Shown: positions 7,000-33,702 of the stretch, in pieces
Numbering within the stretch: the first letter of the stretch is position 1
Layout of the letters: each line of letters starts with the position of its first letter
Source: Chromatiales bacterium
GTDB lineage: Bacteria > Pseudomonadota > Gammaproteobacteria > Thiohalomonadales > Thiohalomonadaceae
Length of the DNA: 33,702 nucleotides
Reading direction: 5' to 3'
Assembly (NCBI GenBank): GCA_030640985.1
Contig: DAOWII010000052.1
Span: 1-33,702 of the forward strand
Made by a program: the position numbers and the translations under genes
The notes under the pieces: model-generated
What the model was told of the DNA's origin: nothing
Seen by the model: only the letters and a program-made list of their open reading frames with translations
The model's database searches: none

Positions 7000-7650
7000 T
7001 TAGCCCGTTTCAAAATTGATGGCCATATGCCTTCCATCACAGAAGGGTTTGTTATTGGAGGCTCCGCAACGGCATAGCGCCGTTTTGTCACCACAAAAGG
7101 CTTTACGGCCACTTGCCGCATGGATAGTAACAGGCCCTTCAAACACCAAGGGCCCGTTCTTTAACCCTTTAATTTTTAGACTCGCCGGGTTCTGACTCTC
7201 CGCTGTACAGTCAGACGCGATAGCACCGGAATCCTTAAAGCCGGCTTTTCCATGGCTGCCATCACAAAAAGGTTTGTTGCCTGATGCACCACAACGACAT
7301 AAAGCAACTTTGCTTTGAATATGCTGGAAGGGATTATTAATATTTTGTAAATCCAGATCGCCTTTCACATAAAGTGGCCCATCGGGCGATACCATCACTG
7401 AATTAAAGTCAACAACCGTATCTTCGCCACCATCATCCAGGCGCTTATATCTCAATGCGCCTGTCGGGCAGCGTTCAACAACTGCAGCAGCCACATCGGC
7501 CGACACTGCATCTGGATCACACCAGGGATCTTTTTCCACGTTAAACAATGCTCTGGAGCCACGGCCACATTCCGCTGCATGGATACAAAGCCTGCGGTCA
7601 TAAACAATCTCAATATCTTTTCCTGTGTAAGTGCTTACCTGCTCTTTCAT
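7000..7650 (-). CDS. CDGSH iron-sulfur domain protein with N-terminal divergent 4Fe-4S (Fer4_19-like) domain
   Basis: 216 aa; two CDGSH-type motifs 'CRCGASGNKPFCDGSH' and 'CRCGASNNKPFCDGRH'; N-terminal 'CIHAAECGRGSRALFN...VVERCPTGAL'. Confidence 0.92.
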   Translation of the reverse strand: MKEQVSTYTGKDIEIVYDRRLCIHAAECGRGSRALFNVEKDPWCDPDAVSADVAAAVVERCPTGALRYKRLDDGGEDTVVDFNSVMVSPDGPLYVKGDLDLQNINNPFQHIQSKVALCRCGASGNKPFCDGSHGKAGFKDSGAIASDCTAESQNPASLKIKGLKNGPLVFEGPVTIHAASGRKAFCGDKTALCRCGASNNKPFCDGRHMAINFETG

Positions 7651-29408: not shown

Positions 29409-30749
29409 GTGACTAGCCCCCTGTGGCAAAAATGCCTGAAATGGTTGGAGGATGAACTATCCCCTCAACAATTCAATACCTGGATTCGCCCTCTTCAAGC
29501 GGTGGAAGACGATGGTGTATTGCGCCTGCTCGCGCCTAACCGCTTCGTACTAGACTGGGTAAATGAGCATTTTCATGAGCGTATTAGTAGTATTGCCGAT
29601 CAGAACTCCGATGGACGTGAACTGACAGTGCTGGTTGAAGTGGGTAGTAAGGCCCCTCCTCCCAAACCAGAAAAAACTGAACCCGTTCACAAAGAACCCC
29701 TTCCCCCTGGCAAGAAATCTAGCGAAAGACGCAATACCATTAACCCAAATTCCACCTTCGAGGCTTTCGTAGCAGGTAAATCCAATCAACTGGCCCGTGC
29801 TGCAGCCCAACAAGTAGCCGAAAACCCCGGGCTTGGATATAACCCTTTATTTATTTATGGTGGTGTCGGCCTGGGTAAAACTCATTTGATGCATGCTGTG
29901 GGTAACATGATCCTGCAACACCGCCCGAATGCCAACGTGGTATATCTGCACTCTGAACGATTTGTCGCAGATATGGTTAAAGCACTGCAACACAATGCTA
30001 TTAACGAATTCAAACGTTACTATCGTACCGTTGATGCCTTACTTATTGATGATATTCAATTTTTTGCTGGTAAAGAACGCTCACAGGAAGAGTTTTTCCA
30101 CACATTTAACGCCTTACTGGAAGGTCAATCACAAATCATTCTTACCTGTGATCGTTACCCAAAAGAAGTACAGGGCCTGGAAGAAAGACTTAAATCCCGC
30201 TTTGGCTGGGGACTCACCGTCGCCATTGAACCTCCTGAACTGGAAACTCGTGTTGCTATTCTGAAAAGTAAAGCCGCTCAATCCAATATAGACTTACCCA
30301 ATGATGTGGCTTTTCTTATCGCCCAGGGGATTCGCTCTAACATCCGTGAGCTTGAAGGTGCACTACGCCGGGTTATTGCCAACGCTCACTTTACTGGTAA
30401 ACCGATCACCCTCGAGTTTGCCAAAGAAGCTCTCAGAGACTTGCTTGCCTTACAATCTAAATTAATTAGTATCGAAAATATCCAGAAGACTGTTGCAGAA
30501 TATTATAAGATTCGAGTAGCAGATTTACTTTCCAAGCGACGCCCTCGTTCAATTGCCAGACCACGACAACTGGCAATGGCGCTAGCCAAGGAATTAACCA
30601 ATCATAGTTTGCCAGAAATTGGCGATGCTTTTGGCGGTCGGGATCATACAACGGTGTTACATGCTTGTCGGAAAATTCAAGAGTTAAAAGAGAGCGATCA
30701 ACGGATAACTGAAGACTATGCCAACCTGTTGAGAACTCTGTCGACATAG
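29409..30749 (+). CDS. dnaA: Chromosomal replication initiator protein DnaA
   Basis: 446 aa, GTG start; '[22 protein letters not shown]', '[26 protein letters not shown]', '[24 protein letters not shown]'. Confidence 0.99.
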
Positions 30750-30972
30750 TCTGTATAAACCTGTGGATAATACTGTGGACTTATTTAATCTAAATATACA
30801 CACATGTTACCCACAGAAAAGTAAGTGCCTTTACACAGAGTTGTGGGCAACTTATTACAAAGTAACTTATTGATTTTACTACTAAAAGTGTGTTTAATCA
30901 CATACTCACAGGACTAGTAGTAATAATAATAAGTTTTATATATATATATTTAATAATAATCAGGAACACATA
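30750..30972. other. oriC: Probable oriC / unwinding region between dnaA and dnaN
   Basis: Exact DnaA box at 30762-30770 (TGTGGATAA), near-matches at 30807-30815 (TTACCCACA) and 30842-30850 (TGTGGGCAA), then an AT-rich tract 30915-30960 with TAG/TAA triplets and a (TA)n run. Confidence 0.7.
30762..30770 (-). promoter_or_regulatory. Consensus DnaA box downstream of dnaA
   Basis: TGTGGATAA on + strand = TTATCCACA on - strand. Confidence 0.85.
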
Positions 30973-32073
30973 ATGAAATTCCGGATTTCCAGAGAAGATT
31001 TACTTAAACCACTTCAAATGGTCAGTAGCGTTGTCGAGAAAAGACAAACATTACCTATTTTATCTAATGTGTTTGTTCAAGCTGAAAAAGGCAAACTAAC
31101 CCTGGTAGGTACTGATCTTGAAGTCGAGCTAATGGCTGTGACTTCTTTACAGGATGCAGAAGATGGGGATATCACTCTACCGGCACGTAAATTTGTTGAT
31201 ATCTGTCGGACACTTCCTGAAGAAGCAGATATTACTATCAGTGTGAACGATGCTAAGGCAACGGTACGATCAGGCCGTAGTCGATTTACTTTGGCTACTT
31301 TGCCTGCCTCTGAATATCCTGCTGCTGAAAATGTTACCGGAGCTTTTGAGTTTAGTGTTGAGCAAAAAGATCTAAAAAAACTTCTGGAACAAACACAATT
31401 TTGTATGGCTAATCAGGATGTACGTTATTACTTAAATGGTCTTCTATTCGAAGTGGATAGTAAAACATTGAGAACTGTTGCTACAGATGGTCATAGACTT
31501 GCCCTGTGTGAGACTACTTCTACTGCAAATAGTAGCGAAAAAAAGCAAGTAATCATTCCTCGTAAAGGTGTTGTTGAACTGAGTCGTTTGTTAAGCGATA
31601 GCGATGGTAGCTGTGATATTAAATTTAATAATAACCAGATTAAGTTTAGTCTGGATGGCGTTACCTTAACTTCAAAGCTTATAGATGGCCGCTTTCCTGA
31701 TTATGATCGGGTTATTCCTTCAGAGGCGCCTCAGACAATAATCGCTGATCGGGAAACTCTTCGCCAGGCTTTAGTTCGTGCTTCCATTCTCTCTAATGAA
31801 AAGTATCGTGGTATTCGTCTGCAGCTGGAAAATAACCGAATTCGGGCCTTTGTGAATAATCCTGAACAGGAAGAAGCTGAAGAAGAAATTGAAGTTCAGT
31901 ATCAGGGAGATGAATTTGAGATAGGTTTTAATGTCTCTTACCTGTTGGATGCACTTAATGCAGTCAAACAGGATCAGGTTGAGCTTTCCATGATTGATGC
32001 TAATAGCAGTTGTCGTATTAAAGGGGTTGGTGACGATTCCAGTCAATATGTCGTCATGCCCATGCGTTTGTAA
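30973..32073 (+). CDS. dnaN: DNA polymerase III beta sliding clamp
   Basis: 366 aa; 'MKFRISREDLLKPLQMVSSVVEKRQTLPILSNVFVQ', 'RYYLNGLLFE', C-terminal 'YVVMPMRL'. Confidence 0.99.
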   Translation: MKFRISREDLLKPLQMVSSVVEKRQTLPILSNVFVQAEKGKLTLVGTDLEVELMAVTSLQDAEDGDITLPARKFVDICRTLPEEADITISVNDAKATVRSGRSRFTLATLPASEYPAAENVTGAFEFSVEQKDLKKLLEQTQFCMANQDVRYYLNGLLFEVDSKTLRTVATDGHRLALCETTSTANSSEKKQVIIPRKGVVELSRLLSDSDGSCDIKFNNNQIKFSLDGVTLTSKLIDGRFPDYDRVIPSEAPQTIIADRETLRQALVRASILSNEKYRGIRLQLENNRIRAFVNNPEQEEAEEEIEVQYQGDEFEIGFNVSYLLDALNAVKQDQVELSMIDANSSCRIKGVGDDSSQYVVMPMRL

Positions 32074-32085
32074 TTTACTAACAAA

Positions 32086-33162
32086 ATGAAGCTCAAAGGT
32101 CTGAAAGTTAAAGACCTGCGCAACCTCGCAGAGGTTAATCTTGACCTCTGCCCTCACCTTAATGTCATTCTGGGTCTAAATGGTAGTGGTAAGACCAGTT
32201 TGCTTGAGGGTATCCACCTTGTCAGTTTGGCCCGATCTTTCCGTACTCAGCAAAACCGTCCTTTAGTAAGGCATGGAACCAATGAATTAACGGTCTTTGC
32301 TCTTATTGAGAGTCCATCAGGTGTACACAAACTTGGTGTACGTAAAAATAGTAAAGGTGAAACAGCCCTTCGCCTGGATGGGCAAAAGGCTAAAAACAGC
32401 TCTGCTCTGGCTTCTTTGCTACCTATTCAACTGATTACCCCCTCTAGTCACGAGTTGCTTGAAAGTGGCCGAAAACAACGGCGGGCTTTTATAGACTGGT
32501 CATTGTTTCACGTGAAACATGATTATCTTGAGTTATGGCAACGATATGTACGGACGGTTAGACAGCGAAATGCCGCTTTACATCAATCACAACAGGCAGC
32601 CATTGTCTGGAATGAAGCACTACTTAAGTATGGTGAGGAAATTAACAGGGAACGGCAGCAGTTTGTGGTGAGCTTTTCAATGCTGGTTGCACCCTATATT
32701 CAGCAGTTACTGGATAATATAAGTATTGAATTTGATTACTACCCTGGGTGGGCCAAAGGGAAAGATTTTTCGCAGGCGCTTGCTGATAGTCAGGAAAGTG
32801 AAAAATCTATGGGATATACGACCGTTGGCCCTCACCGGGCTGATTTACGCATTCGAATAGATAAACATCCAGCGATTGAAATACTGTCCAGGGGGCAACA
32901 AAAGCTCCTGGTATGTGCAATGCGTTTGGCTCAACTTGAACATCTTAGGCTAGAAACAGGTAAAACCGGGGTGGTTTTAATTGATGACCTACCTTCCGAG
33001 CTGGATAGCGAGCATCGTTCACGACTGCTGTCTTTGCTGGAGAAGACAGGTGCGCAGGTATTTGTAACTGCAACTGAGTCAGAGCTTATTGATACCACTG
33101 TCTGGCCTGCAGTAAAGGTGTTTCACGTGGAACATGGACAGGTGAAAGAAGTGGTACAATAG
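32086..33162 (+). CDS. recF: DNA replication/repair protein RecF
   Basis: 358 aa; Walker A '[28 protein letters not shown]', '[11 protein letters not shown]', '[17 protein letters not shown]', '[12 protein letters not shown]'. Confidence 0.98.
32504..32519. promoter_or_regulatory. parS: parS centromere site (perfect 16-bp palindrome) inside recF
   Basis: TGTTTCACGTGAAACA, exact match to the conserved bacterial chromosomal parS consensus. Confidence 0.93.
33119..33134. promoter_or_regulatory. parS: Second parS site (one substitution) inside the 3' end of recF
   Basis: TGTTTCACGTGGAACA, 15/16 match to TGTTTCACGTGAAACA. Confidence 0.85.
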
Positions 33163-33185: not shown

Positions 33186-33702
33186 ATGTCTGAGCAATAC
33201 GATTCAACTCAAATCAAGGTTCTTAAAGGTCTGGATGCTGTTCGCAAGCGTCCCGGTATGTATATTGGTGATACCGATGATGGTACCGGCCTGCACCACA
33301 TGGTGTTTGAAGTGGTTGATAATTCCATCGATGAAGCCTTAGCTGGTCACTGTAGTCAGATTGATGTGGTCATCCATAGCGATAATTCCGTTACTGTGGG
33401 TGACAATGGTCGAGGCATCCCCGTTGATATTCATGAAGAAGAGGGTCGTTCTGCTGCAGAAGTCATTATGACTGTACTCCATGCGGGCGGAAAATTTGAC
33501 AGTAACTCCTATAAAGTTTCCGGTGGTTTGCATGGCGTAGGTGTTTCGGTGGTGAACGCCCTTTCAACCACCTTAAAGTTAACTGTTAAGCGCAATGGCA
33601 AGCTGCACCAGGAAGAAGATACCCACGGCGAACAAATGGCGCCACTGGCAGTGATTGGCGAGACCAACTACACTGGAACCGGGGTTCGTTTTTGGCCAAG
33701 CC
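33186..33702 (+). CDS. gyrB: DNA gyrase subunit B (partial, truncated by window edge)
   Basis: ATG at 33186 after [116 protein letters not shown]... Confidence 0.98.

Follow-up and report, generated by a model that had tools for sequence, protein, structure and literature searches.

Paired parS sites written in recF codons near the replication origin of a gammaproteobacterium and in most of its class

The window, that is, the whole stretch of 33,702 nucleotides analysed here, carries the gene order dnaA-dnaN-recF-gyrB, with two parS sites inside recF. The relevant features are listed below.

29409–30749, + strand: dnaA (TIGR00362, E 2.1e-184)
30750–30972, + strand: probable oriC, the dnaA-dnaN intergenic region, with DnaA boxes and an AT-rich stretch
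30973–32073, + strand: dnaN (TIGR00663, E 1.1e-115)
32086–33162, + strand: recF, 358 aa, host of both parS sites (TIGR00611, E 2.1e-106)
32504–32519, + strand: parS site 1, TGTTTCACGTGAAACA, a perfect palindrome; L-F-H-V-K-H in the recF frame, RecF residues 140–145
33119–33134, + strand: parS site 2, TGTTTCACGTGGAACA; V-F-H-V-E-H in the recF frame, RecF residues 345–350; recF ends 28 bp later
33186–33701, + strand: gyrB, truncated by the window end (gyrB models, E about 1e-81 to 1e-95)

RecF scores 355.9 bits against TIGR00611, for which the cut-off is 172. The dnaA-dnaN gap contains a perfect DnaA box at 30762 (− strand) and a second box with one mismatch at 30807, its AT-richest 40 bp begin at 30921, and the GC-skew minimum, at 30570, is close by. 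Taken together, the perfect DnaA box, the AT-rich stretch and the turn in skew put the probable origin ~1.5 kb from parS site 1 and ~2.2 kb from parS site 2. The original prediction had set them at about these distances from a putative unwinding region, which fits the position of the AT-richest 40 bp.

The two sites are spaced 615 bp apart and share a reading frame, TG-TTY-CAC-GTG-RAA-CA, which gives LFHVKH at site 1 and VFHVEH at site 2. Both have zero mismatches to TGTTYCACGTGRAACA, of the 16-bp palindrome class TGTTNCACGTGNAACA. The claim that two exact parS sequences lie within recF was confirmed in position, frame and peptide. A third match in the window, at 7532, has three mismatches and is chance-like; none of 100 window shuffles equalled the match count at up to three mismatches. 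Across the 1.77 Mb of the host genome 0.0018 exact copies of TGTTYCACGTGRAACA are expected and two are observed. A scan for scattered copies at up to one mismatch (1.77 Mb, 203 contigs, 78.85% complete) returned the two recF sites and nothing else: parS copies in this 79% complete genome are few and clustered, not scattered. As the host genome is an incomplete MAG, additional parS sites could be absent from the assembly.

A chromosomal-type ParB is encoded in the same genome, on contig C163 (PF02195, E 4e-40; TIGR00180, E 6.5e-62), which answers the question, raised with the original prediction, of whether a ParB is present. Its ORF, of 295 aa, is intact and has an N domain of the chromosomal type as well as a canonical HTH. 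The gene (L006:1387-2274 on C163) is followed by atpI-like and atpB-like frames, as usual. No parA frame was found in the ~960 bp upstream of parB, where a parvulin-like gene lies on the opposite strand instead, and in the window mnmG-rsmG-parA do not come after mnmE. The parA gene may have been relocated, or may belong to a contig absent from the assembly.

We determined how widely the arrangement occurs with a class panel of 232 genomes drawn evenly from Gammaproteobacteria, in 195 of which (125 families) the RecF DNA could be read. A site was counted as intact when the inner 14 bases GTTYCACGTGRAAC were present. By this measure site 1 is intact in 156 of the 195 genomes, site 2 in 147, both in 130 and at least one in 173; counted by family, both sites occur in 85 of 125 and at least one in 111. 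Alignment of Pseudomonas RecF with the 195 panel sequences places the intact sites at the same RecF codons and in the same frame. Moreover, 305 of the 386 parS-like sites (at most one of the 16 bases mismatched) found in these 195 genomes fall in the recF ORF. Two recF sites are present in 127 genomes, 103 of which have no other parS-like site, and the commonest number of parS-like sites per genome is two (134/232). Hence, parS embedded in recF is not peculiar to the host genome and is common to most of the class. Named loci were fetched partly by a pattern that included the site peptide; they serve below as examples and for Enterobacterales, not for frequencies.

In 25 genomes from the phylum's other classes, RecF had no parS at either place. 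In the tree gammaproteobacterial RecF forms a supported clade against these outgroups, and most deep branches of that clade bear intact pairs; the recF pair is therefore probably ancestral to the class. Four genomes for which no clear RecF was recovered (G151, G138, G227 and G181) have exactly two parS-like sites each, whose starts are separated by 36 to 722 bp, which points to a pairing independent of recF. At locus L337 (G152) recF is divided between two frames and both parS sites are kept; selection on the sites is apparently independent of an intact frame there, or the split is a sequencing error.

Codon choice allows selection on DNA to be told from selection on protein. In genes bearing FHV[EK], codons were compared with the expectation from the same genes' own codon usage. 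At site 1, CAC is used in 158 of 160 cases (71 expected), GTG in 158 of 160 (53 expected) and RAA, that is GAA or AAA, in 160 of 160 (85 expected); the counts at site 2 are 150, 152 and 154 of 154, respectively. The bias amounts to z scores of 10 to 18 and holds with one genome per family. Among 98 conserved degenerate RecF columns the six lowest synonymous entropies are those of H142, V143, E144, H347, V348 and E349, with normalised values of 0.11–0.32 against 0.75 for the seventh column and a median of 0.94. That these six columns are the least variable in synonymous choice argues that the DNA is under selection. The predicted selection at the DNA level is thereby borne out, the FHV[EK] codons being frozen class-wide at synonymous positions. 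From the sequence comparisons, the DNA itself appears to be selected as a ParB-loading centromere, with ParB binding in the host organism a prediction.

The further proposal, that the palindrome imposes the FHV[KE]H peptides on RecF, is upheld in part. It stands for the synonymous positions, for V-E at site 1 and for H at site 2, but F-H at site 1 and F-V-G at site 2 also belong to RecF itself. In Enterobacterales devoid of parS, site 1 still has F and H (DWGCFHNEP) and site 2 F, V and E (FRVEQG), and outgroup RecF often keeps a C-terminal F..V...G. The constraint that parS adds thus falls on V-E at site 1 and on H at site 2, and in both sites on the synonymous positions. Since parS-less lineages and outgroups retain part of the peptide, the overlap sits where RecF already nearly spelled parS.

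The two sites also change together. In five genomes, apart from one another on the tree, both have departed jointly from the CACGTG core. G101 carries TGTTTCATATGAAACA twice (CATATG core), with V replaced by M in both peptides; no further copy occurs in the G101 genome, and a genome scan found canonical parS absent. G043, which is 91% complete, lies outside the class panel and came in through the search for relatives, carries TGTTCCACATGGAACA twice (CACATG core), again with V to M twice and only two in its genome. G170 has CCATGTGG twice (CATGTG core) through the synonymous His codon change CAC to CAT, and G022 has the same variant at both sites in opposite orientations. In G050, with CTACGTAG and CCACGTAG, both sites have moved toward CTACGTAG. 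Core variants at one site only are rare (G029, G070 and G095). For the association between variants at site 1 and site 2, computed with kinship ignored, p is 3e-7, and 5e-6 if one case is left out. Paired change would be expected if one protein, ParB, reads both sites.

The ParB proteins of G101 (L389) and G022 (L394) have N-T-M in the region of the recognition helix, where most panel ParBs have N-L-L. This is possibly a specificity change; canonical genomes vary there too.

Loss of the sites was also followed. Sixteen genomes of enterobacteria and Orbaceae lack a chromosomal-type ParB, their best TIGR00180 match being plasmid-like (E 6e-39 or weaker); none of them has an intact recF site, and remnants such as TGTTCCGCGTGGAACA are found. 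Within one family both sites are kept in the ParB-bearing G046 and decayed in the ParB-less G165 and G248. When ParB loss and site loss are compared on the tree, there are three independent pairs, on starred branches, and the sign test gives p 0.5, reflecting few independent events. Ten panel genomes that encode ParB retain neither recF site, and hence the recF location is not obligatory. Among ParB-bearing genomes that have lost the recF copies, Marinomonas and Salinicola have parS-like sites elsewhere in the genome. In family f119, G137 (L329) and G226 (L336) lack the C-terminal site 2 and have an in-frame parS-like site at nucleotide 913 of the recF ORF, a relocation within recF. Sites elsewhere in the genome or elsewhere in recF indicate that the function can move.

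Several loci of Vibrio and one unclassified Vibrionales (L059, L076–L079 and L116), together with Photobacterium L069, have lost site 1, which Photobacterium L053 has kept. Site 2 persists at the Vibrio, Vibrionales and Photobacterium loci as a variant with a CATGTG core, and some of these genomes have more CATGTG-core sites near the origin.

We consider it very probable that the two palindromes are chromosomal parS, a ParABS centromere written in recF codons and loaded by the genome's own ParB. A chance match, in favour of which there is the short length of the sites and nothing more, has a negligible probability: about 0.002 copies are expected and two are found 615 bp apart, at places that are filled in most families. 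This reading is refuted by the copy expectation, the shuffles and the class-wide position. FHV[EK]H might instead be a protein motif that RecF uses twice, the palindrome being a by-product of its codons, and the persistence of F and H at site 1 and of F, V, E and G at site 2 in Enterobacterales or outgroups without parS fits such a motif. It remains highly unlikely, because synonymous codons are fixed far above the genes' own usage, the six site columns are the most frozen of the 98, and G170 has made a synonymous change at both sites. Moreover, V to M at both sites in G043 and G101 makes no sense for two unrelated positions of a protein, and in P. aeruginosa protein-neutral mutants lose ParB affinity. 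As the sole explanation, the protein motif is ruled out by the codon tests and the paired synonymous changes.

We give equally little credence to the idea that a different protein reading CACGTG-type palindromes binds the sites in place of ParB; the 16-mer is identical to the consensus parS established for the ParB of P. aeruginosa, both recF sites of that species included, a ParB is encoded in the same genome, and the sites decay where chromosomal ParB is absent. That the sites are inherited relics without a present role in the host lineage could be argued from the ten ParB-bearing panel genomes that do without both. It is nevertheless very improbable here, as both sites are exact although the host RecF is only about 35–46% identical to its relatives, they are the sole sites in the assembly, and the ParB is intact.

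With the sites read as a ParABS centromere, the host ParB would load at the two codon-embedded sites, spread across dnaN-recF-gyrB and pass the freshly replicated origin on to ParA (as well as to an SMC-type condensin if present), such that sister origins would separate just after initiation. Binding, spreading and the role in segregation in the host organism we infer by analogy with P. aeruginosa. As RecF already required Phe-His and the C-terminal F..V...G, the sites could have arisen without harm to the protein, and later selection on the DNA would have frozen the synonymous positions.

It is likely that the recF pair is ancestral to Gammaproteobacteria and makes up the whole parS set of many chromosomes, and that shifts in the core specificity of ParB move both sites, even at the cost of the same RecF residue change twice, which would make the pair a natural record of ParB-parS co-evolution. 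A bacterial centromere held at constant codons of a repair gene across a class makes selection on DNA and selection on protein cleanly separable, and the five lineages with a joint core change are ready material for tests of co-evolution between ParB and its site. It also carries a warning: a conserved FHVE in RecF should not be taken as protein function.

The window is a further case of the recF-parS arrangement already published for P. aeruginosa. In the literature searched we found no report of the class-wide conservation, the paired changes or the occurrence beyond Pseudomonas; the principal comparative work, by Livny et al. (2007), lay outside that literature and may mention part of this. 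The parS sites closest to oriC in P. aeruginosa are in recF (PMC3909081), with parS1 as well as parS2 located inside that gene (PMC5521831). They have the sequences TGTTCCACGTGGAACC (parS1) and TGTTCCACGTGGAACA (parS2), and both bind ParB tightly (PMC3909081, PMC5521831, PMC4368675). Base changes designed to be protein-neutral weaken ParB binding; segregation requires one of the four origin-proximal parS sites, and one is enough (PMC4368675).

P. aeruginosa is therefore like the window in having two parS sites inside recF and near oriC, of high affinity in that organism, and in our alignment the parS1 and parS2 sequences of Pseudomonas loci sit at the RecF positions of site 1 and site 2. The two differ in that P. 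aeruginosa has eight further parS sites, of which parS3 and parS4 are also of high affinity and origin-proximal, whereas the 79% complete host genome has the recF pair only. Furthermore, site 1 of the window is a perfect palindrome (AAACA), whereas its P. aeruginosa counterpart ends in C. Like parS of ParABS (Spo0J/ParB) systems in general, the window's sites are origin-proximal 16-bp palindromes of the class already given, with a ParB encoded in the genome; unlike them, they are embedded in codons and positionally homologous across the class. In Caulobacter crescentus extra parS sites introduced experimentally are favoured in two hot spots, one of which spans recF-gyrB (PMC5815017). The native parS cluster of C. 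crescentus lies outside recF, whereas the pair in the window lies within it.
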